A program made the translations under genes and the position numbers. From the NCBI RefSeq assembly GCF_002355155.1, contig NZ_AP017369.1:2914001-2978000 (forward strand): a stretch of 64,000 bases of DNA, in the 5' to 3' direction. Source of the stretch: Corynebacterium suranareeae (lineage in GTDB: Bacteria > Actinomycetota > Actinomycetes > Mycobacteriales > Mycobacteriaceae). Shown here in pieces: positions 7,016-62,741 of this stretch (within the stretch, counting starts at the first letter, position 1; every line of letters begins with the position of its first letter). A model generated the notes under the pieces. That model was not told the DNA's origin. It ran no database searches and was given only the letters and a program-made list of their open reading frames with translations.

Positions 7016-7284
7016 AAAATTGCTTTTCGACACCTCCCTCCCCCACCAATAACATCATCCCTGGCCCTATCTACAGAAGAAGTAGCGGTTGCCCGATTGC
7101 GCCGGTTCTTAGCGATCTGATTGAGATGGAACACCCCCTTTGCTTAAACTGCCTTGGTCGCTAGATGAAGTGATCTCACCAGAAATACTCTAACCAGTGC
7201 AAATTTTGGCATGAGGACAATTTCGGCACTATTTCGGCTCAACTCGGGAAACCCGACAACTGACGCCATGAAAATGAGCCATAG

Positions 7285-7545
7285 GCGTTTATCGCTTGTT
7301 TAAGGCCTCGGGCTTTTCTGGATGAGTATTTGCATGCACTTGACCTTGAAAACCCGTGAGAAGCGCTGCTGGGGAGGTATGACTTTTTAGGGTAGCGGCT
7401 TAAATTTGAGAGCGACCAAACCAGGAGACCCAGAATCTTCAAAAACTTAAATGTTGGGTCTCTGTGTTTGGTATTGAGGGAGATACACCAAACACAGAGA
7501 CCCACAAACGTCGAAAAAGTGATTTCTGGGTCTCCTGGTTTGGTC
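7285..7545 (+). repeat. Twin-hairpin intergenic repeat family A, copy 1 (261 bp)
   Basis: The left part (7285-7413) begins GCGTTTATCGCTTGTTTAA. The right part (7414-7545, 132 bases) has a perfect 22-bp outer inverted repeat (7414-7435 with 7524-7545) and a perfect 16-bp inner one (7455-7470 with 7487-7502). The right part can also fold as two tandem 56-base hairpins with CCAAAC...GTTTGG ends. The same 261-bp layout recurs at 33612-33872, and a diverged copy lies at 61848-62115. It fills most of the phoU-pstB gap. Confidence 0.85.
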
Positions 7546-7732
7546 TTATGCCGTCTTATGCAGCCAAGCGCACGACCAAGCGCACGAACGCCTAAATCCA
7601 CATGGAGCAAACAGCAATTTCGGCACTAATTTGACCCAAGTCGGATCTTGGATCGATGTTTAAGCGATGTACGTTTTACCAAAATCTTGGTGTCGAAAGT
7701 ACACGCGGACGAATAGCCCAAAAATTACTAAT

Positions 7733-14116: not shown

Positions 14117-14224
14117 GACCAAATCCATAGGCAGTTCAAAGATCCTTGGTCACCAGTGCAAGTTTGCTGACCCGGATAGCGTCGTATTCGACCAAAACCT
14201 CCTTTGAAGAAAGCGTTCTTGGTC
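14117..14224 (-). repeat. GACCAA/TTGGTC twin-hairpin repeat family B, copy c (108 bp, minus)
   Basis: Two 35-base units (14117-14151, 14190-14224), each with GACCAA and TTGGTC ends, are separated by a 38-base spacer. On the minus strand the spacer contains GCAAACTTG..CTGG, shared with the copy at 41275. It fills the middle of the otherwise empty 13884-14398 gap. Confidence 0.8.
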
Positions 14225-14398
14225 GTCAGGTGAAGTAGTGCGCAAAACCGACAAAAGGAGCCGGAAAAAGTGACCCCACAGATTCGCGTGTAAAGCCCTA
14301 ACAGACCTCGGTTGATACAAATACTCACGTGGAAATCTCAGGCGCTTAAACGGGGTATCTGGCGGGGATGAAGAACATTAAGGAATCTCGCGCTTGAG

Positions 14399-22739: not shown

Positions 22740-23747
22740 ATGTCTGAGAACTCACACGAGAATCCCCACCGCTCGCCAGAAGTTGTGCTCCGTTTCATGG
22801 CGGCCCCTACCGATGTGTTGATGGCTGGTAGCCATGGTGTCGGTGGTGGCCGTGTCCTGGAATGGATCGATAAGGCGGCTTATGCCTGTGCCACGCAGTG
22901 GTCAGGAACATACTGTGTCACGGCTTATGTGGGGCATATTCACTTCACGCGCCCTATTCCTTCTGGACACATGGTTGAGGTGCGTTCTCGTATTGCGATG
23001 ACTGGTCGTTCTTCAATGCACATTGTCAATGAAGTGCTCTCTGCTGATCCTCGTGATGGTAAATACACCCGTGCATGTGACTGCCTGGTCATTTTCGTAG
23101 CTAAAGATACCGCTACTGGTCGCGCTACTGCAGTTCCTACTTTTACTCCAAAGAATGAAGAAGAGCAGCGCGTGTTGGAGGCTGCTAATTCTCGTATCGG
23201 TTTGCGCAAGGCCATTGAAGCTGAGATGGAAAAGCAAACCTATGTGGGCCCTTCTGAAGCACCTCGTTTGATCACTCGATTCTTGGCTAAGCCCACCGAT
23301 ATTAACTGGGGTGGCAAGGTTCATGGTGGTACTGCTATGGAGTGGATTGATGAGGCTGGTGCTGCGTGCACGATGGAGTGGTCGGGTAATCACACTGTTG
23401 CGGTGTATGCCGGTGGTATTCGTTTTTATCAGCCCATTCAGATCGGTGATCTCATCGAGGTTGATGCTCGCATGATGCGCACTGATAAGCGTTCCATGCA
23501 GATGTCTATTCACGTGCGTGCTGGTGATGCTCACCGAGGTCGCGCAGAGCTAGAAACCGCGATTCATGCAACCGTAACTTACCTCGGTATTGATATCGAT
23601 GGCGAGCCGTTGCCTGCTCCGCAGTTTGAGCCTCGTACGCCGGAAGATATTCAGCTTGCTGAGCATGCCAATATTTTGAGGGATTTGCGTGCTGATTACA
23701 CCCCGATGCCTCTGTTCCCCCGCCGTGTTCCTCGCCAGATTGATTAA
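22740..23747 (+). CDS. Acyl-CoA thioesterase with two hotdog domains
   Basis: 335 residues. Two tandem hotdog domains share the pattern LRFMAAPTDVLMAGSHGVGGGRVLEWID (near residues 16-45) and TRFLAKPTDINWGGKVHGGTAMEWIDEAG (near 180-210). Each has the helix-starting Asp/Glu and an HG/GG motif of the acyl-CoA hydrolase family. It should split long-chain acyl-CoA to free acid and CoA in the cytosol. Probably leaderless, with its own terminator. Confidence 0.88.
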   Translation: MSENSHENPHRSPEVVLRFMAAPTDVLMAGSHGVGGGRVLEWIDKAAYACATQWSGTYCVTAYVGHIHFTRPIPSGHMVEVRSRIAMTGRSSMHIVNEVLSADPRDGKYTRACDCLVIFVAKDTATGRATAVPTFTPKNEEEQRVLEAANSRIGLRKAIEAEMEKQTYVGPSEAPRLITRFLAKPTDINWGGKVHGGTAMEWIDEAGAACTMEWSGNHTVAVYAGGIRFYQPIQIGDLIEVDARMMRTDKRSMQMSIHVRAGDAHRGRAELETAIHATVTYLGIDIDGEPLPAPQFEPRTPEDIQLAEHANILRDLRADYTPMPLFPRRVPRQID

Positions 23748-23748
23748 G

Positions 23749-23905
23749 TGAAAGAATGTGTGAAAATCCACCACAAGACCGTGGTGGATTTTCCCGCTTC
23801 ATAGCTACTTGGGGTGGCGAGTTCAGGGGGTGAAAATTTGATCAGTAAACTTCCACGCTTCACATCTGCCCCGCTGACCCCAAAATCAACACCGCCTAGA
23901 ATCGC
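23749..23905 (-). repeat. Repeat family C, copy 1 (coding-like sequence plus terminator stem)
   Basis: The minus strand starts GCGATTCTAGGCGGTG and reads AILGGVDFGVSGADVKRG in one frame. It ends in the hairpin at 23763-23792 and CACATTCTTTC. A second copy at 28769-28970 gives AILAGLVFGASGADVKPG in the matching frame. Over the first 23 codons differences fall 9 at third, 4 at second and 2 at first positions. It could be a remnant of a spread coding sequence. Confidence 0.6.
23763..23792 (+). terminator. Terminator after thioesterase gene
   Basis: AAAATCCACCAC and GTGGTGGATTTT form a perfect 12-bp stem with a 6-base loop, 15 bases after the stop. Confidence 0.85.
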
Positions 23906-23982
23906 CCTGAAGAGCTCAATGAAGCCCCAACCATACAAAAGCTCTCCAACCCTTTAAATCGGCGTCTACAGCCAACTTATCT

Positions 23983-28634: not shown

Positions 28635-28768
28635 GATCGCAACCCTAGTTGAGGGGTGATAAGGCGCGCTGCTTTTAATTTTCAAGCACACGTTGCAACA
28701 GGCGATTTAAGGCATTGGAATCCTGGAATGAGCCTTTGTATATCCCAGGCTTACTTAGACGCTCAGAA

Positions 28769-28970
28769 GCGATTCTGGCAGGCCTTGTTTTTGGGGCCAG
28801 TGGTGCAGATGTGAAACCTGGAAGAATCCTGATCAAGGACTCACCACAAACAGGCCTCGAGGGGTATAAATCGGTCAAAAACTTGCACCGAGGAGGCCGT
28901 ACAGTGAAAATCCCCACCACAAATCACTTAAAACGGCCGATTTGTGGTGGATTTTCGCACATTCTTTCGC
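28769..28970 (+). repeat. Repeat family C, copy 2
   Basis: The plus strand starts GCGATTCTGGCAGGCC, has the frame AILAGLVFGASGADVKPGRI, a longer middle than copy 1, and the same ending with a GGTGGATTTTC hairpin and CACATTCTTTC. It faces the deacetylase-like gene and supplies that gene's terminator. Confidence 0.6.
28907..28955 (-). terminator. Terminator after the DUF2334-like gene
   Basis: AAAATC(C)CCACCACAAATC pairs with GATTTGTGGTGGATTTT around a 13-base loop, 28 bases past the stop. Confidence 0.8.
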
Positions 28971-28982
28971 CTAGCAGTTAAA

Positions 28983-33522: not shown

Positions 33523-33611
33523 AAGCCCCGATCTTAGTCACGCCAACTATCCGCATGCTGCTGTGTTCGCCATTGGCGACATTTCGCAGTAACTCCCTTT
33601 TGGAGACGCAA

Positions 33612-33872
33612 GCATTTATCGCCTGTTTAAAGCCTTCAAATTTCTTGCATGAACATTTGTATGGATAGGGCTTAGAAAACCGCTTAGAAACGCTTCTGGG
33701 GAGGTATGACTTTTACACGTTGGGTTCAACATTCGGACCCGACCAAACCAGGAGACCCAGAATCTTAGAAAACCCGAATGTTGGGTCTCCCAGTTTGGTA
33801 CCTAGCGCGACACACCAAACCAGGAGACCCACAAACGTCAAAAACGCGATTTCTGGGTCTCCTGGTTTGGTC
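33612..33872 (+). repeat. Twin-hairpin intergenic repeat family A, copy 2 (261 bp)
   Basis: Same length and layout as copy 1 at 7285-7545. The outer 22-base arms (33741-33762, 33851-33872) are identical to those of copy 1. The inner arms (33783-33798, 33815-33830) differ from copy 1 but still pair, with two mismatches. It fills most of the ptrB-purC gap. Confidence 0.85.
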
Positions 33873-33903
33873 TAGCCCTACTTCAGTGCCAAACGGGGCA
33901 GTG

Positions 33904-40123: not shown

Positions 40124-40231
40124 GACCAAAGGAGCTTGAGGAGTTCTGGTTTTTGGTCAAATATGACGGTTTCTCAGGCTTGAAACCAGCACAGGTGACC
40201 AAAAGCAGGTCTGGAAAAGCACTTCTTGGTC
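40124..40231 (+). repeat. GACCAA/TTGGTC twin-hairpin repeat family B, copy a (108 bp)
   Basis: Two 35-base units (40124-40158, 40197-40231) begin GACCAA and end TTGGTC, around a 38-base spacer starting AAATATGACGGTTTC. AACCAGCACAGG precedes both units. Same architecture as 41275-41383 and 14117-14224. Confidence 0.8.
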
Positions 40232-40278
40232 GTATGCGCTGGTATCACCTTGATCCCGCTCAAAATTTCACCTCGGGC

Positions 40279-41058
40279 CTAAATAGATTTAACACCCCTG
40301 AATAAGAACTGCGGTGTTGACTCATGCCCTGGCGAGAGACCAAAACGTTGATCAAGTTCCGCTAAGCCTTCAATAGGTGTCACCGTGACGTCCCTCAGGC
40401 CTGCGTTGTGGAAAAGTTCCGCGAAATTTTGGCCACTAGACGTTGTGGACATGGGTAGTTTCTGCAAAAGTTCCGGGGTGTAGGTCTCTACAAACGCTCC
40501 CGGACCATCGACAGAATCAACCTCAGTACCGGCATCAATTCCTTCCGGATACCATGCGGCATCTACACACGCGATAACTCCGCCTGGTTTTAGCAACGAC
40601 ACCCAACGATTAATCGCAGCTTGAGGATCCAATAGCGTCCACAACACATACCGGCTGGTTATCGCATCAAAGGAACCTTCCGGGAATGCAGGGTCATGTG
40701 CATCACCGATATGGAATGTGGCAGTTGCCTTGCCTGCCTGTGCACGACGTTCATTTTCCTGCTTGGCTTGGTTAATCATTTCCTCAGAACCATCAACACC
40801 GATGGCCTTAAATCCGCAATCGCTGAGAAGGTGGGTGACATAACCAGAACCGCAGCCCAGATCGAGAACTTGTACTGCATCTTCTTTCACATCAGGTAAA
40901 GCCCCTGACCACACAGCCTCCCAAATCGGCCGTTCAAATCGAGCGCGCTCACTTTGAGTTTGGTTGAGGTGATATGCCTGCGCCCTGCCACTCCAATAAT
41001 TGTTGAGGATGTTTTGTAATTCAGGTGATGTCACGGATTCTTGGCCTACTTCTGTCAT
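40279..41058 (-). CDS. SAM-dependent methyltransferase, class I
   Basis: 259 residues. SAM motif I is VLDLGCGSGYVTHLLSD near residue 57, then AIGVDGSEEMINQAKQ (motif II) and FDAITSRYVLWTLLDPQAAINRWVSLLKPGGVIACVDAAW (motifs III-IV). The opening NILNNYWSGRAQAYHLNQTQSE is like methyltransferases encoded beside transport or biosynthetic genes. Substrate unknown. The ATG at 41058 is a choice by family length; there is no clear ribosome site. Confidence 0.75.
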   Translation of the reverse strand: MTEVGQESVTSPELQNILNNYWSGRAQAYHLNQTQSERARFERPIWEAVWSGALPDVKEDAVQVLDLGCGSGYVTHLLSDCGFKAIGVDGSEEMINQAKQENERRAQAGKATATFHIGDAHDPAFPEGSFDAITSRYVLWTLLDPQAAINRWVSLLKPGGVIACVDAAWYPEGIDAGTEVDSVDGPGAFVETYTPELLQKLPMSTTSSGQNFAELFHNAGLRDVTVTPIEGLAELDQRFGLSPGHESTPQFLFRGVKSI

Positions 41059-41274
41059 TCGCTTGTGCTGTGCATCCCAGCCTAGACCTGATAGACGGTA
41101 CGCTATGCAGGCCAACGTTGGTTTTCAGCAATCGCCTTTTAAAGGCCCTGTGAGGGGTTGAAGATTTCAGATGGGTATTTACATTACTTGTGGTCTGCGA
41201 GGGCGTTACACGCCAATCTGTGAGGTCACTTTTCTAGCGGCAATCTTTAAGTTTTGTTTCTCACTTCATCTAGA

Positions 41275-41383
41275 GACCAAAGCAGCTTATGCAAAGCAGA
41301 TTCTTGGTCAAATATGGCGGTTTCCAGACGAGCAAACTTGATCTGGCGACCAAAAGCCCTGGAATCCCCTTTGGCTTTGGTCG
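41275..41383 (+). repeat. GACCAA/TTGGTC twin-hairpin repeat family B, copy b (109 bp)
   Basis: Units 41275-41309 and 41349-41383, each 35 bases with GACCAA and TTGGTC ends, and a 39-base spacer starting AAATATGGCGGTTTC. The second unit has a 10-bp stem with one bulge (GACCAAAAGCC with GGCTTTGGTC). It lies in the 452-base gap between the methyltransferase and phoS. Confidence 0.8.
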
Positions 41384-53234: not shown

Positions 53235-54986
53235 TTACTTGGAAATGCTCGTAGTCTCCTCCGAGTTTTTCAGAGTCTCCACATTGCCCGCCGCATGTTG
53301 GGCCGCAATCCACCCAAAGGTCATTCCGGAACCTACTTGCGAACCAGCACCTGGGTATTCAGAGGCCATGACGGACTGGGCGTCATTACCCGCGGAATAC
53401 AGACCCTTGATCGGTTCGCCGTTGCTATCGACAACTTGCGCATTCGTATTGATGCTGATGCCAAACGCAGTAGCCAATGGAGTGGGAACCACAGCAATTG
53501 CGTAGAACGGCCCCTTCTTCATTGGCCCGATATTGGGGTTTGGTTTGTGGTTTGGATCGCCGGCAGCTTGGCCAAAGAGGAATTCACCTTTGTGGAAATC
53601 TTCATCCATGCCCGTTTTAGCAAAGGTGTTGTATCGTTTGACGGTTGCTGCTAGACCTTGTGAATCTACCCCAATGTTGCGTGCCAATTCATCTAAGGAT
53701 GCTCCTGTGTGCAGGTATCCAGAATCGATGTATTTTTGCAGCGCCAGTTTGGGCAGGTGAGGCATGGTGATCATGCCGAGGCCGTATTTGGCGAGGGTGC
53801 GGGAATCAACAATCAGCCAGGCTGGAACAGTCGGGGTGGTTTTGTTGGACTCATACATAGCGCGCACAAATCGGTGGTAAGACACGGATTCATCGACGAA
53901 CCGTTCACCAGCGGAGTTCACCGCGATGACACCTGGTCGGCCACGATCCCAGATGTGTGGGAACACTGCGGTGGATCCATCTGCTCTGGTGCCAATGGAT
54001 GAGGGGAACCACAGTGCATTTTCGCCGTTATCATCACCTAGGTGCGCACCCACATTGGCAGCGAGTGTCAGAGTATCGCCGGTGGCGCTTTCATTAGCCC
54101 TAGAAAATTGTGGGGTGGGTTGCGGCATGTACTTTTTGCGTAGTTCAGGGTTTTGGGAGAACCCACCAGCTGCTAAAACCACACCCTTGTTTACACGAAT
54201 ACGGTGCTCTACTCCCCCATGGTTAACTACTGCCCCAACCACTGCGGAATTTTCTGTAATCAGCTCAGTGGTTACAGCATTTCGCCATACCGTGCCACCA
54301 CGCGACAAAATCTGGTGATACATTCCTGCGGTCAGTGCATTGCCCATGACAAGACGGGTTCCACGTGGGTATTTAACCATGTCGGTGGCCCAACGAAGGC
54401 CAAGTTTAAGAGCAGTTCCGATTGCTGCGGCAGTTGGTTTTGGACGCTTGGAAAATAGTCCTAAAAGAACATTTACTTCCGGCCTGCGCAGCATCATGGT
54501 GCCGTTCATCAGTGCGAATTCATGAACCGGTGGACGGATATGAGAGAAGTTGATCTTGCCCAATTTGCGGCCATCGAAAGGTTTTGGTTCAAGAGCACGG
54601 CCAGTTTTTCCGGTTTCTGGAAGTTCAGAGTGGTAATCCACAACATTAGGTGAGCGGAGGAATTCCACACCAATGTTTTCCATGTACTTCAACATCTTTG
54701 GTCCTTGGTCAACGTAGGCCATGCGCATTGCTTTATCGGATTTATCGCCAATGAGGGTGTCCAGATAGCGTTCTACTTTTTCACGATCATCGGTAATGCC
54801 GTCTTCGCGCTGGAAGTGGTTGTTGGGAATCCACATGGTTCCAGCAGAATAGGCAGTAGTACCTCCGATGTAGTCGCTTTTTTCTAAGACCAATACGTTT
54901 AGTCCTTCTACAACACCAGTTAATGCTGCAGAGAGTCCGGCTGCGCCTGATCCTAAAACAAGCAGGTCAACTTCTTTTTCCGTCAT
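53235..54986 (-). CDS. KstD-like FAD-dependent dehydrogenase (1)
   Basis: 583 residues of the FAD-binding-2 family (3-ketosteroid-delta1-dehydrogenase / fumarate reductase flavoprotein type). The ADP-binding fingerprint is [20 protein letters not shown] near residue 9 with ESNKTT downstream, and [18 protein letters not shown] is the FAD-binding loop. The C-terminal [19 protein letters not shown] fits the catalytic Tyr/Gly motif of KstD. It introduces or removes a double bond next to a ketone in an unknown substrate. Start has AGGAG upstream, 19 bases after the second flavoprotein; last gene of the operon. Confidence 0.85.
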
Positions 54987-55005
54987 TGTTCTTCTTTACT
55001 CCTAA

Positions 55006-56676
55006 TTAGTTAAACTCAAATGCTTTGTTTAGTGCAGTATCGATGCTTGCACCTATATGTTTGCCCGCTGCGTACGCGCGGGTGATTGCTGATCCGATCG
55101 TTGCTCCACCTCCTGGATAGGCATCTTTAAAGACCGTTGCAGAACAATTTCCTGCCGCATATAGCCCTCCCAGTGGAAGCCCATCCCACCCCAGGACCTC
55201 ACCATTGAGGTTGGTGTGTAAACCACCTGCGGTACCCAGCGCGCCTGGTTTTAATTCGACTGCATAAAACGGACCAGTTTCTAGTGGCGCTAAACATGGG
55301 TTTGGGATGTTGACAGGATCGCCCAAGTGGCGATCTTGTTCTGTCGCGCCTCGGCCAAATTCAGAATCAATCCCCTCACGGGCATCGGCGTTGAATTGTA
55401 AAACCGTCGAGCAAAGGCCTGCAGGTTCCACACCAAGTTTGTTAGCAAGGTCGTCCAAAGTCTCCGCCTGCACCATCCATGACGGCGCGTCGGCAGCAGA
55501 GGAAAACGTTGGATGCCCTGCCACTGGGTATCTAGCAGTGAAGGTTGAATCCATCACCAAAAATGCTGGAATATTAGCAAATTCTGATGTTTCGGGGTCA
55601 ATGTTGGCAAAGACGCGGGAGAAATCGTGATAGTTCAAAGCCTCATTAACAAAGCGTTTGCCCTGCTTATTCACCACGATCGAACCCGGCAGGGTTGCTT
55701 CCACATTGCCCATGCGCCCAGATTGCTGCCCATCGTAGTGCGCGCCGTGAGCAGTAATAACAGGCACACCCCAGATATCGGTGGTCTCTGAAAACGCAGC
55801 GCCCACACCGATTCCCAACTTGAGCCCATCACCGGTGTTAGACGGTGCAGAAATAGGGGTGATTGGAAATTTCAGCAATGTGGAGGTGAGCTCCTTGGAC
55901 CATTCGAAGCCTCCTGAGGCAATGACCACGTGCTTGGCGGTGATGGTGCGGTGGAGGGAGGCGTCGATAAGCAATATTTCCCAGCCGGCCTGGCTGCGGT
56001 GAAGTGAGCTGGCTGCGGTACCCACTGCGATGCGGATTCCGGCGTCCCAGGCGGACGCGACCATGGCGGAGATCAGCGCGCCACCCATAGTGCGTACTCC
56101 CTGTTCCGCGCGACTTTCAAGCAGTTGCGGGTTGGGGGCAGCGCCGTGGAGATGATCACGCTCATCCATCGTGATCAGCGGCAAATACGTAGGCGGGCGC
56201 ACGGCCTCCGCCAAACCCGGAACTACCGACGGATCAAAAGGCCTGTGGTCCAAACCGCGACCACCTTGGGTGGAACCGGGCCATTCGCGGTGATAATCCG
56301 GGCGATTCAACGGCGCATAATCCACGCGCGTTTTCTCATCCAAAAACTGCACCGCTGCCGCCGCATTGTCCACGTACCAGGCAATCTCCTCAGCAGAAAG
56401 CTTGCCCTTGGTCGCCGCACGAATGTACTCCGCCGCGGCCTCCGGCGAATCCGTGAAACCACGCGCACCCATTAAATGGTTGTTCGGCGCCCACATCACC
56501 CCGCCACCTGCGGCCGTCGTGCCGCCAAGCTTTTTATGCTTTTCGACGACACCCACCTGCGCACCTTCGCCCGCCGCGACAAGTGCGGCCGTTAACCCAG
56601 CACAACCAGACCCAATCACCAGCACATCCAGTTCATCAGGCCATTGGTCCACTGAAGAAAGAAGTGGCTTAGACAT
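55006..56676 (-). CDS. KstD-like FAD-dependent dehydrogenase (2)
   Basis: 556 residues, a paralogue of the neighbouring flavoprotein. Opening DVLVIGSGCAGLTAALVAAGEGA (FAD fingerprint), GGTTAAGGGVMWAPNNHLMG, ASGGFEWSKELT and C-terminal AYPGGGATIGSAITRAYAAGKHIG. The ATG at 56676 has CCAGGAG upstream and overlaps the alcohol dehydrogenase stop by 8 bases. The two enzymes may act on successive substrates or as a pair; steroid, dicarboxylate and cyclohexanone-type substrates are all possible. Confidence 0.85.
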   Translation of the reverse strand: MSKPLLSSVDQWPDELDVLVIGSGCAGLTAALVAAGEGAQVGVVEKHKKLGGTTAAGGGVMWAPNNHLMGARGFTDSPEAAAEYIRAATKGKLSAEEIAWYVDNAAAAVQFLDEKTRVDYAPLNRPDYHREWPGSTQGGRGLDHRPFDPSVVPGLAEAVRPPTYLPLITMDERDHLHGAAPNPQLLESRAEQGVRTMGGALISAMVASAWDAGIRIAVGTAASSLHRSQAGWEILLIDASLHRTITAKHVVIASGGFEWSKELTSTLLKFPITPISAPSNTGDGLKLGIGVGAAFSETTDIWGVPVITAHGAHYDGQQSGRMGNVEATLPGSIVVNKQGKRFVNEALNYHDFSRVFANIDPETSEFANIPAFLVMDSTFTARYPVAGHPTFSSAADAPSWMVQAETLDDLANKLGVEPAGLCSTVLQFNADAREGIDSEFGRGATEQDRHLGDPVNIPNPCLAPLETGPFYAVELKPGALGTAGGLHTNLNGEVLGWDGLPLGGLYAAGNCSATVFKDAYPGGGATIGSAITRAYAAGKHIGASIDTALNKAFEFN

Positions 56677-57718
56677 GGTGTGCTCCTGGCTGTGTTGTAG
56701 GAAAATCGATGGCAATTTTTCCAACACCAGCATCCGGAGTAGTCAACGTGGTGAAAGCCTGATCAAGATCAGCGAACTCAAAACGGTGGGTAATAAGCGC
56801 ACGCAATGTGTTTTGGTGCTTATCAAGCAGCTCGATGCACTCTGGAAACAGATTCTGGGAATTGCGAGAACCCAACAAATCGATTTCCTTGGATACAAGT
56901 GTGCGCATATCAAACACCAGTTCACGATCCGAAATGCCTACGCACACTACCCGACCTGCGGTAGCAACCTGATCAATCGCAGATGCTAAAGATGCTGGGG
57001 ATCCAGTGGCATCGATGATTAAGGAAGGCCCGTTTCCATCAGTCCACTGCGCAATCTGTGTGTCTTGGGTGCCGTCTGGAACCAGGAAAGTTTTATCAGC
57101 ACCGCAGTGCACCGCCAGATCCAGACGAGATTGCACCATATCACTAACCGCGACATCGCATCCTTGATCTTTCAGATAGCGCACCGCCAAAACACCAATC
57201 GGTCCTGCACCATTAACCAACACCTTCTCACCCTGGACAGGACGCCCACGCTTGCACGCCTGCATGGCAATGGAAATCGGCTCGACTAAAGGTGCAAGAT
57301 CAATCGGCAATGAATCTGGAATCTTAAATAAATTGGCAAACGGCACAACCTGCTCATCAACCAAAGATCCATCTTCATAGCAGCCGTAAACGCTCATTTC
57401 CTTACAAGCATTCACTCGACCAATCGAACAGGCATAGCAGGTGCCACAATAAAACATAGGGCAAATAACAACCCTGTCACCGATCTTAAATCCATTGCCT
57501 TCATCGGTTGGATGGATATCCACGATGATTCCAGCAGCCTCATGACCTTGAATGATCGGAAGCTCCGAAGCGTAGTCATCGTCCCAAATATGCGCGTCAG
57601 TTCCACACAAAGTAACAGCCGACATGGCGATCCGCGCAGAGCCAGGCGATGTTTCCGGTGTAGGTCTTTCTTGAAACAAGATGGTCTTTTTGGAAACGGT
57701 TACAGCAGCGGTAGTCAT
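56669..57718 (-). CDS. Zinc-dependent alcohol dehydrogenase (MDR family)
   Basis: 349 residues. Catalytic zinc ligands are Cys in TLCGTDAHIWDDDY and His-Glu in QGHEAAGIIVDIHPTDEGNGF. Structural zinc cysteines are CGTCYACSIGRVNAC (C-x2-C-x2-C-x7-C) near residue 100. The nucleotide motif is VNGAGPIGVLAVRYLKDQG near residue 175. It oxidises a secondary alcohol or polyol, or reduces the ketone, with NAD(P). Translationally coupled to the downstream flavoprotein gene and directly after the YciI-like gene. Confidence 0.88.
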   Translation of the reverse strand: MTTAAVTVSKKTILFQERPTPETSPGSARIAMSAVTLCGTDAHIWDDDYASELPIIQGHEAAGIIVDIHPTDEGNGFKIGDRVVICPMFYCGTCYACSIGRVNACKEMSVYGCYEDGSLVDEQVVPFANLFKIPDSLPIDLAPLVEPISIAMQACKRGRPVQGEKVLVNGAGPIGVLAVRYLKDQGCDVAVSDMVQSRLDLAVHCGADKTFLVPDGTQDTQIAQWTDGNGPSLIIDATGSPASLASAIDQVATAGRVVCVGISDRELVFDMRTLVSKEIDLLGSRNSQNLFPECIELLDKHQNTLRALITHRFEFADLDQAFTTLTTPDAGVGKIAIDFPTTQPGAHHV

Positions 57719-57719
57719 G

Positions 57720-58049
57720 TTAGTTCTGCCCTGCTGGTTGTTTTGCTGGTTGCTCTGCTGGGTTTTCAGCAATGGCTCCGAAAGCAACGTTCCACTTTCG
57801 AACTAAGCGCTGCGAGACAAATCCACCAGAGAAAATGGGATCCTGATCCATGATCGTCTCGACCTCTTCAACGCTATCGCCTTCGATGATCAACAGCGCG
57901 CCCAACGGATCGCATTCAGTTAAACGACCAGAGATCAGCAACGTACCTTGTTCATGGAGATTTTTTAGAAACTCAACGTGAGTAGGTCGAATAGCCGCCA
58001 TCTCATCATTTTCTGGAACGTATGCGTAAGTTACGGCGTATGCAGCCAT
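57720..58049 (-). CDS. YciI-like / YCII-domain protein
   Basis: 109 residues. YAVTYAYVPENDEMAAIRPTHVEFLKNLHEQGTLLISGRLTE and LLIIEGDSVEEVETIMDQDPIF match the YCII domain, a ferredoxin-fold with a conserved His (here H24). Related proteins occur in catabolic operons (muconolactone isomerase-like fold). The C-terminus is a Gln/Pro/Ala-rich tail. Placed between the transporter and dehydrogenase genes; role unknown. Confidence 0.8.
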   Translation of the reverse strand: MAAYAVTYAYVPENDEMAAIRPTHVEFLKNLHEQGTLLISGRLTECDPLGALLIIEGDSVEEVETIMDQDPIFSGGFVSQRLVRKWNVAFGAIAENPAEQPAKQPAGQN

Positions 58050-58081
58050 GGAGGATCACACTTTCTTAAAATTCGCGGGTT

Positions 58082-59563
<1,482 letters not shown>

Positions 59564-59602
59564 CTACATTATTTAAGTAGGAATTGAGCTTAATTAAGTC
59601 GT

Positions 59603-59627
59603 GGTTAATACTTTTGCTGCATTAACC
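59603..59627 (-). promoter_or_regulatory. LysR-type operator (T-N11-A) upstream of the catabolic operon
   Basis: GGTTAAT (59603-59609), an 11-base spacer and ATTAACC (59621-59627) make a perfect inverted repeat with the T-N11-A form of LysR sites. It sits in the 326-base gap between the LysR gene and the transporter gene, the only structured feature besides a short CTTTTGG/CCAAAAG pair near 59653-59674. Confidence 0.65.
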
Positions 59628-59763
59628 TTTGCAAATAAGGAATCGTGCACTTTTGGCTCACTGCCCAAAAGCCACAAAATTTATGAAAAAATCTTTGTTT
59701 CGAAACCTCTTTCAGGGGTGTACGGGCATTCCCTAAGAGAGATTTCACGGAACTCAAGGGCGC

Positions 59764-60651
59764 TCAAGGGTTAAAAATCTCCAACGCAATATCGATGACC
59801 GCATCCCGAGCAACTCGCCCTGCCCCCTGCATCCATGCCACACCATGACGTAGCTCCACAGAGCACTGCTTGATTGGCAAAGTCACCGTATTTGCTGGCG
59901 CCAACTTTCCTGTGCTCTGCGTAGTAACCGCAACCCCAACCCCGACCTCAACCAACAATAACGCCATATACGGATCATTTACCTGCTGGCTAATCCTTGG
60001 CACAAACCCGGCCTCAGCACACAACTGAAAAGTGGAATTTCTAAAAACAGAACCAGGAAACTCCGGTGTGGTCACAAAACCTTCATCAGATAAATCCGCC
60101 AAATCCACCACATCTTCCCCCGCAAGACGATGATTCTTCGGCAGCACCACACAAAAACCCTCAACGCTAATCAGCTGAGTTTCAATCTCTGGATCCTCAA
60201 TGGGCAATCCCATCAGCGTGATATCCAAAGCCCCCAAACGCAACAAACTCACTGCCTCTTTAGTGAGCTTTTGCCCAACAAGCTCCAACTCCACATTGGG
60301 CAAACGCTTACGCACCTCACTTGTCAGCAACGGCAACGTTGAATAGTTCAACACCCCCGAAAAGCCAACACGCACGACACCAACGATTTCCCCCTCAGCG
60401 GCATTCACCGCTTCCCGAGCCACCGCAGTGCTGGCAACAATTTCCCTGGCATGGGGCAAAAACGCTTTCCCCGCAGCGGTTAACTCCACCGACCTAGTAC
60501 TGCGATCAAAAAGCTTCTGCCCCAGTTCCGCCTCCAGCTTCCGAATCAACTGGCTCAAAGGTGATTGCGCCATCCCCAAACGAATTGCCGCATTACTAAA
60601 ATGCAATTCCTCTGCGACAACGATAAAGCCTTCCAACCACCGAATCTCCAC
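59764..60651 (-). CDS. LysR-family transcriptional regulator
   Basis: 295 residues. The helix-turn-helix is RWLEGFIVVAEELHFSNAAIRLGMAQSPLSQLIRKLEAELGQKLFDRSTRSVELTAAGKAFLPHA, then a periplasmic-binding-protein-like co-inducer domain (about 90-290). It starts with GTG at 60651. Placed between the five-gene operon and the SDR gene; the T-N11-A palindrome upstream of the operon is its likely target. The ligand is presumably a substrate or intermediate of the cluster. Confidence 0.9.
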   Translation of the reverse strand: MEIRWLEGFIVVAEELHFSNAAIRLGMAQSPLSQLIRKLEAELGQKLFDRSTRSVELTAAGKAFLPHAREIVASTAVAREAVNAAEGEIVGVVRVGFSGVLNYSTLPLLTSEVRKRLPNVELELVGQKLTKEAVSLLRLGALDITLMGLPIEDPEIETQLISVEGFCVVLPKNHRLAGEDVVDLADLSDEGFVTTPEFPGSVFRNSTFQLCAEAGFVPRISQQVNDPYMALLLVEVGVGVAVTTQSTGKLAPANTVTLPIKQCSVELRHGVAWMQGAGRVARDAVIDIALEIFNP

Positions 60652-61847: not shown

Positions 61848-62115
61848 GCGTTTATCGCCTGTTTAAGACCTCGAGATTTTCGAATAAGTATTTGTACGGG
61901 TAAAGCCCTGAAAACCTCTTAAAAGCGATTCTGGAGCCTCGAAATTTTTGGGGCTAGACTCCAAAATTCCCTCTACACAGATGAGACCAAACATACATGA
62001 CAAGGAATCTCGAAAACCCAAAATTTTAGCACGTATGTTTGGTTTATCCTGCCTTAGGCCAGACAGGCATGACAAAGAATCGGGAAAACAAAAATCTTGG
62101 CACCTATGTTTGGTC
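61848..62115 (+). repeat. Twin-hairpin intergenic repeat family A, copy 3 (268 bp, diverged)
   Basis: It starts GCGTTTATCGCCTGTTTAA like copies 1 and 2, and ends ...TGTTTGGTC. Two tandem units keep CCAAAC...GTTTGG ends with a new 10-bp stem (61987-61996 with 62033-62042). The inner sequence differs strongly but hairpin ends and spacing are kept. The mobile element at 62123 lies right behind its end. Confidence 0.7.
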
Positions 62116-62122: not shown

Positions 62123-62741
62123 TGTAAAGTGTCAGCACGTTGTGCACACTCAATGTCTAGTCCTTGTGCACGTTCTACCTCACTAGGTTGTGCACACACT
62201 GATCCGTAGCGGTGTGCACACCAACCTGAACCCGAGTACCAGTTTTAGTGCAGTAGATCCCCCGGGCTCGAGTGAGTTGAATCGATGCTTTGCCTCATCA
62301 CGTTTACGCTGCCACAGCGGTGGCGGGTGGCTTATCCACACTCCACGAATGCTGCAGCAAATTGATGTGAGACCCACCCTTGGCAAGAACAGTAGCCCGC
62401 TCATGGAATCGATGGTTCACATTCGCTCAGTGGGCTGACTTGGCCTTGGGAAACTATCCGTTGTGCCAGTCGGGCAGGAACAGCCTTCCGGGGGAGGTTC
62501 TAAGCCGACTTCAGAACCCTGTGATTGATGGACTGCGCGGGGTATATGGGTCGAATGTGATGATCGTGTACCTCTGAGCGCCTCAGGTAGGTATCAATCT
62601 ATTGTCAGCAGCCTGGGATTATGCCTGTGGTGGGGTCTTAGGGTGTGCACAATGTCATGACACTGTGCGTGCATAAGGTCATGACATTGTGCGTGAACAA
62701 GGTCATGACCTTAAGCGTGCACAACGTCTTGACACAGAACA
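62123..62741. mobile_element. Decayed 619-bp element with iteron arrays at both ends
   Basis: Both ends start TGT and match in inverted orientation (GTGTCA..ACGTTGTGCAC). The left end carries TGTGCAC at 62141, 62165, 62189 and 62213, spaced exactly 24 bases. The right end carries GTG(C/A)A(C/T) at 62645, 62669, 62693 and 62717, again every 24 bases, in units like GTGCACAAnGTCATGACA. A 15-bp direct repeat flanks it. The TGT/ACA ends and long duplication fit IS481-like insertion sequences, but no complete transposase frame remains. A perfect DnaA-box sequence TTATCCACA lies at 62332-62340. Confidence 0.7.

Follow-up and report, generated by a model that had tools for sequence, protein, structure and literature searches.

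A probable non-autonomous mobile repeat of Corynebacterium that joins a conserved leader to exchangeable palindromes

BOX elements of Streptococcus pneumoniae are modular interspersed repeats, the subunits of which can be combined. REP sequences and BIMEs are portrayed as high-copy extragenic palindromes, often organized into regularly spaced composite units (PMC2817692), and the REP palindrome unit itself is given as 20-40 bp long, with a GTAG or CGTC tag (PMC3733652). Closer in terms of host are the stem-loop families Cod-1, Cod-3 and Cod-5 of C. diphtheriae, which are listed at 140, 170 and 74 bp, with 17, 23 and 35 copies, respectively (PMC2267715).

The repeat described here was analysed starting from a 64-kb stretch of Corynebacterium DNA (hereafter, the window, i.e., the whole stretch at its full length), and it is of the same broad kind: a bacterial interspersed repeat, BIME/BOX/MITE-like. 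As in REP/BIME elements, high-copy intergenic palindromes occur in regular pairs: among 176 units in the fetched own-genome sequence, most of them paired, 65 gaps between neighbouring units are exactly 14 bp. In contrast to these elements, however, the unit measures 58 nt and not 20-40 bp, and a leader of ~129 nt is attached to it. Reading the units, we found (G)ACCAAAC at the foot of the palindromes, the arms being ACCAAAC/GTTTGGT, and saw no GTAG (or GGAG) tag there. Moreover, a search of the own genome for the Y1 (RAYT/TnpA) transposase (PF01797) gave no match at E<=1, while 10 of 14 control genomes matched (6 above the cut-off), and RAYT/REP membership was therefore rejected.

The likeness to BOX, drawn by description, lies in the modular, interspersed build; the host is unrelated, however, and the Corynebacterium repeat places several internal palindrome types behind one kind of leader. 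Like MITEs, the repeat is small, non-coding, intergenic and present in many copies, and by reading, some copies of hairpin type A (see below) sit within a larger element of 430-650 bp that has 15-bp terminal inverted repeats (CCCGACTTGGGTCAA) at both ends. Yet this holds for some type-A copies only; no such repeats were seen on the 261-bp core, nor was a target duplication seen. The Cod families, which are also Corynebacterium stem-loop repeats, are the nearest published relatives by host, as compared by description. The sequence-only reading had left room for the copies being one known, named element; Rfam gave no match at its gathering score within the window except tRNA, and otherwise only sub-threshold microRNA matches in four loci, and the open-licence literature, as far as our search of it extended, yielded no description of this repeat.

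Copies, layout and genomic context

Three copies had been noted in the window, at 7285-7545 (261 bp), 33612-33872 (261 bp) and 61848-62115 (268 bp), and these positions and lengths were confirmed, as was their location on the + strand between larger open reading frames (ORFs); copies 1 and 3 are overlapped by two short mechanical ORFs on the opposite strand. Two details required correction. The common start does not extend to copy 2, which begins with GCATTTATCGCC and not with GCGTTT (a small error), and the right part, while it does comprise two tandem hairpins with CCAAAC/GTTTGG ends, has as its natural unit 58 nt (ACCAAAC...GTTTGGT), with a spacer of 14 bp. The notion of a family of three, on the other hand, proved wrong: three is an artefact of the 64-kb window, and 113 leader-bearing copies were found among the matches listed.

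In copy 1, the leader, i.e., the constant front part, spans 7285-7413 on the + strand (from the whole-element model match at 7283-7544 and the alignment), and it is followed by two type-A hairpin units of 58 nt on the same strand, H1 at 7415-7472 and H2 at 7487-7544 (unit pattern; genome positions 2921415 and 2921487). Copy 1 also retains beside it, at 7617-7645 on the - strand, the motif that closes the longer element of the A subfamily on its right (CCCGACTTGGGTCAAATTAGTGCCGAAAT, with 1 mismatch), and this right-end motif occurs at 27 places at <=3 mismatches. A repeat scan of the window further found a direct repeat of this motif at 7218-7247 (+), its partner being 7615-7644, such that copy 1 is flanked on both sides; upstream, at 7138-7173 (-), there appears to be a piece resembling the E-type palindrome region, which pairs with 41261-41296 inside an E-type element. 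Copy 2 has the same composition, all on the + strand, with a leader at 33612-33740 (BLAST and model match) and type-A units of 58 nt at 33742-33799 (H1) and 33814-33871 (H2), both by the unit pattern. Copy 3, likewise +, carries a leader at 61848-61984 (model match) and type-B hairpins, H1 at 61986-62043 (58 nt, unit pattern) and H2 at 62058-62114 (57 nt, from the sequence and the unit list); just downstream of it, at 62653-62734, lies an array of GTCATGAC palindromes. The folding z-scores of copies 1, 2 and 3 are -10.57, -10.92 and -4.25, respectively.

Model matches revealed five additional elements in the window: a leader copy (14239-14357) with an E-type palindrome (GACCAA/TTGGTC) behind it, together at 14180-14357 (-); a weak leader copy at 23861-23969 (-; E 1.5e-6) with no recognised palindromes; a leader copy at 28698-28816 (+); an E-type palindrome pair with no clear leader at 40142-40305 (-); and a leader with an E-type palindrome pair at 41136-41367 (+). 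Two other repeats were observed alongside: 32-nt inverted copies at 23745-23776 and 28942-28973, which are 91% complementary and each near a leader copy, and a short motif like AAGCTTWTCGACGCC(CCCTCC), found at 7018, 13663, 27208, 32558, 37275, 44031, 49345, 56534 and other positions, on both strands and also inside ORFs.

The layout that emerges is a ~129-nt leader with a pair of 58-nt quasi-palindromes (ACCAAAC-N44-GTTTGGT) behind it, which are separated by 14 bp. The unit length is exactly 58 nt in 171 of the 176 units mentioned above, and when exact ends were demanded and an inner length of 20 to 99 was allowed, it was 58 nt in 122 of 123 matches. The pattern ACCAAAC-N38..52-GTTTGGT gave 123 matches per strand and the reversed control pattern none, in agreement with the original view that the arrangement is not due to chance. 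The leader, for its part, contains the conserved blocks TTTAAG...TCGA.TTTT..GAATGAGTATTTGTAT...AAAGGC.CTTAGAAGCGATTCTG..AGG.CACTTTTT.

Several palindrome types stand behind this same kind of leader. In the own genome (G000, one contig of 3,537,507 bp) these are types A, B and E, whereas types C and D, with the same layout, occur mainly in two of the other Corynebacterium genomes compared (G079, G090, G094, G097, G110, G118 and G130). When leader rows were typed by motif, G000 had 59 A, 38 B, 21 E, 1 C and 5 others (n=124), G118 had 16 C, 11 B, 3 E, 2 D and 4 others (n=36), and G090 had 6 C and 4 D (n=10); G094 had 4 B and 3 others, and G079 had 1 B and 4 others. By reading, E-type elements consist of two shorter GACCAA...TTGGTC palindromes of ~35 nt, and the palindromes that follow this kind of leader in G079, G094, G097 and G110 are quite different. 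A lone hairpin, AACCAAACCAGGAGAATCC...GGATTCTCCTGGTCTGGTT, was observed in G130 (locus L174, G130:C1:2386183-2386232), with no leader seen alongside.

We searched the whole genome with the 261-bp element and found, by BLAST, at least 40 places in G000 including the query, most of them over nearly the full length (best 40 of 81 candidates). A hairpin-pair model gave at least 147 matches (best 150 of 1591 candidates; many places matched on both strands), and a whole-element model, built on primary sequence and 272 nt long, gave at least 151 (best 150 of 804 candidates). The repeat thus exceeds 100 copies in this genome, with a near-fixed geometry. For the analysis of genomic context, we chose among the 151 whole-element matches listed those 113 elements that have all or part of the leader, leaving out hairpin-only rows, opposite-strand rows of chosen elements and about a dozen leader-bearing rows, some of which fall within the fetched sequence. 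Using a crude gene caller, 112 elements were placed in gaps, 52 convergent, 51 tandem and 9 divergent; the background gaps of at least 40 bp in the window, called in the same way, number 5, 23 and 4, respectively. The elements therefore prefer the 3' sides of genes. Three elements overlap a called ORF of at least 150 aa. In tandem gaps, the orientation relative to the genes shows no clear bias (29 vs 22). Along the chromosome, the spacing is irregular, like random (CV 1.11 vs 0.99 for random, sd 0.09), and the strands are balanced; the idea of evenly spaced chromosome sites was rejected on this ground.

Within the genus, where strict filters were applied to 242 genomes, the hairpin model matched 4 and the whole-element model 8, and among 298 genomes drawn from the order the own genome was the sole match. 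G118 and G090 are rich in copies, with at least 148 and 146 matches when both strands are counted. When named genomes, a set which perhaps excludes the own and near genomes, were scanned for the pattern, one contig only was returned, approximately the chance level. There was no match in 72,556 plasmid records, nor in 50,697 phage records, and a plasmid or phage origin was accordingly rejected. A gene carried by the element was also considered and rejected, as the translations between two G079 leader copies read as ordinary-looking metabolic ORFs.

Leaders and palindromes at matching places

In G118, the stretch at 2.73-2.79 Mb is colinear with the window, and most aligned blocks are 81-87% identical. 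G118 lacks copies 1 and 2 as well as the leader at 14239, the weak leader at 23861 is apparently absent from it, and the element at 41136 has no counterpart among the model matches in the colinear stretch. The gaps at 28698, 40142 and copy 3 are filled in both genomes, the copy-3 place holding an old copy that is common to three genomes. Of the 9 clear elements in the 64 kb compared (very weak model matches not counted), a number that includes one G118 element near 47.4 kb of the window that G000 lacks, 6 are unshared between the two genomes. In the copy-2 gap, G118, G097 and G079 keep the neighbours on both sides and have no element; G094 also has none, though its neighbour differs, and G090 carries another element there, in the opposite orientation. 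This pattern fits an insertion in the G000 line. Conversely, at the place near 47.4 kb both G118 and G094 have an element and G000 has none, suggesting that loss also occurs. In both cases the direction of change, gain at copy 2 and loss near 47.4 kb, would follow from parsimony. By eye, no target-site duplication was seen in the contexts of the larger type-A element or at the copy-2 gap, the flanks of the empty sites being too diverged. Separately, a block of G000 at 54246-59952 is missing at the colinear G118 place.

We extended the comparison to 36 fetched G118 elements, a non-random sample made up of the best model matches and a 100-kb stretch. For 15 of them, a same-direction G000 element stands at the matching place, as established from both flanks in 12 cases and from one flank in 3. 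Another 2 could be mapped through a single flank only, and the flanks of 13 lie beyond the fetched sequence; for the other six, the G000 side has a same-direction copy with a partial leader (1), an opposite-direction element (3), palindromes only (1, at window 40142) or is empty (1). The opposite directions are found in the gaps at G118 39785, 167447 and 2126833 versus G000 37055, 293225 and 2257865, where the element was either inverted or inserted twice.

Comparing G118, G090 and G094 against G000 at such matching places, we observed that leaders and hairpins behave differently. The partner leader is among the 3 closest of 124 G000 leaders (a set that includes at least one spurious opposite-strand row with a long branch) in 13 of 23 comparisons, with a median rank of 2. 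Hairpins, in contrast, rank 1-3 in 1 of 17 comparisons (6 of the 23 pairs have too few hairpin columns for a rank), with a median of 44 of ~103. One doubled place at 588 kb contributes four comparisons; when it is counted once, the figures become 10 of 20 for leaders and 1 of 14 for hairpins. At this place (G000:C1:588200-588762 and locus L118), two tandem copies are present in both species, and both copies carry the hairpin type of their own genome. The other ten leader pairs rank 5 to 90, and some of these may be separate insertions or wrong pairings.

In some cases, then, the hairpin type differs behind an orthologous leader. At the 47.4-kb place, G118 and G094 are identical at 142 of 153 nt (92.8%) through the leader, the spacer and the first 14 nt of H1; past this switch, G118 has a type-C pair and G094 a single type-B hairpin, with 28 of 48 aligned positions equal, which is within the B-versus-C identity range (mean 0.50, maximum 0.64). 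Such an identity (~50%) seems too low for ordinary gene conversion between types. The copy-3 place shows the reverse of the general pattern: between G094 and G118, H2 is identical at 60 of 62 positions (97%) and the leader at 94 of 122 (77%), and G094 lacks exactly H1 and the spacer (72 bp), an absence of the kind that recombination or slippage between repeated arms would produce.

On a leader tree of 160 rows and 110 columns, in which 94 of 157 inner branches are open, type A in G000 requires 9 changes versus a shuffled mean of 46.8, with at least 5 forced by starred branches. Types thus mostly follow leader clades, and it seems that joint amplification of the whole unit is the rule and that the cassette is exchanged now and then, as the exception.

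Explanations for the palindromes and their spread

Taken together, these results describe a large repeat family that is real and specific to one clade, in which a conserved leader is combined with a palindrome cassette that can be exchanged; most likely it is non-autonomous mobile DNA. In its specific form, this explanation holds that the interspersed repeat, non-coding and non-autonomous, belongs to a small Corynebacterium clade, is mobile at the DNA level and joins the ~129-nt leader to a cassette that usually contains two 58-nt quasi-palindromes, and in this form we regard it as on balance probable. Of the mobile or structural module with a fixed layout that the sequence-only reading had envisaged, the mobile part is upheld by the many copies, by the presence and absence between species and by the near-fixed 58 and 14 bp; its structural part, in the sense of a folded RNA, found no support in the outer-arm covariation and wobble tests described below.

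That the twin hairpins act in transcripts as a structured RNA module, which stabilizes, processes or ends mRNAs at gene 3' ends, is an explanation that we consider unlikely, though it does account for several observations. The elements are situated at gene 3' sides, their predicted folds are very stable, and shuffled columns fold far less well than the palindrome region (63 rows), the outermost (nested outer) arms of which are paired in the consensus structure. We examined covariation in three sets: type A (56 rows), type B (15 rows) and the relatives' copies (15 rows of mixed types). Covariation is present in the apical part of H2 in type A (z 3.8), in the nested-outer apical part in type B (z 2.4) and, for 3 of 4 pairings, in the outer arms of the relatives' copies (z 2.8 to 4.2). 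The outer arms of types A and B, however, show none when each type is taken by itself (z -0.6 to 1.8). G:T mismatches are not consistently above A:C across the groups, and in type A it is A:C that exceeds G:T in 4 of 4 pairings, which is expected for RNA read from the other strand and could also reflect shared ancestry. In 85 leader rows, RNAalifold found a common-fold energy of zero, a test of little power given that shuffled columns also yield zero. Intrinsic-terminator-like sites, i.e., a hairpin with a T-run, are rare (7 of 112 elements on the + strand and 3 of 112 on the - strand), and the intrinsic terminator was rejected as a candidate for this reason; a separate terminator-like site is present at 21 of 137 gene 3' ends facing an element (shuffled, 0 to 2). 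On reading the copy-2 gap (window 33540-33610 and 33873-33903), a terminator-like hairpin was seen in G118 and G090 where G000 has the element, a substitution that would suit a role at mRNA ends, while the unbiased orientation in tandem gaps speaks against one. With no outer-arm covariation within types and few T-runs, DNA sites fit better than an RNA device, albeit not conclusively, and we infer that the palindromes are mainly conserved DNA motifs in inverted order.

If they are DNA sites, they might have been domesticated, in which case a chromosomal protein would bind arrays of inverted half-sites (ACCARAC-n5-GNCMA) that are maintained by selection for nucleoid or regulatory work. A conserved motif with little outer-arm pairing covariation, the 58/14-bp phasing and the old copy at the copy-3 place are all in line with this, as is the conservation within type A, which is 90% for hairpins versus 73% for leaders and could, as far as sequence comparison goes, reflect a host function. 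Nevertheless, the random-like spacing, the balanced strands and the share of elements not found in G118 run counter to it, and we judge domestication decidedly unlikely. A dedicated recombination system is a further option, in which the constant leader would serve as a fixed landing platform on which the palindrome cassette is swapped, with the cassette type tracking a fast-changing DNA-binding protein; this would explain different cassettes in related species at the same places, and we hold it to be quite unlikely. Another option draws on integrons, the attC sites of which have the R-box consensus RYYYAAC/GTTRRRY. Here the palindromes would be cassette boundaries that are recombined as folded single strands by a tyrosine recombinase. 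The outer arms ACCAAAC/GTTTGGT fit this consensus at 6 of 7 positions, the central AAAA of the palindromes is, by reading, mostly on one strand, and the hairpin type switches at or just inside the first arm. However, the match is short, and no gene cassettes or arrays were seen in the fetched loci, leaving attC-like sites very improbable.

Returning to the non-autonomous mobile repeat, the process could be pictured as follows. An enzyme encoded elsewhere would recognize the leader and the palindrome arms as DNA and move or copy the unit, and, judging by the clustering on the leader tree, whole subfamilies, each a leader with its matching hairpins, would have been amplified. The palindromes may be protein-binding or recombination sites, the sequence of which follows a changing partner protein; this would explain why types are lineage-specific while length and spacing are equal. 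Since the search for a mobilizing enzyme, which covered PF01797, found none and no target-site duplication was seen, transposition as such is something that we infer. A benefit to the host, e.g., at mRNA 3' ends, is possible and is unneeded to explain the data.

If this explanation is right, the intergenic gaps of what we take to be the Corynebacterium glutamicum clade hold, per genome, more than 100 copies of a repeat that we did not find described, in a group of bacteria that includes industrial model strains. It would also offer a natural case of a mobile repeat whose leader and exchangeable palindromic part can both be traced at identical positions in different genomes, and would bear on how repeats spread without a transposase of their own.
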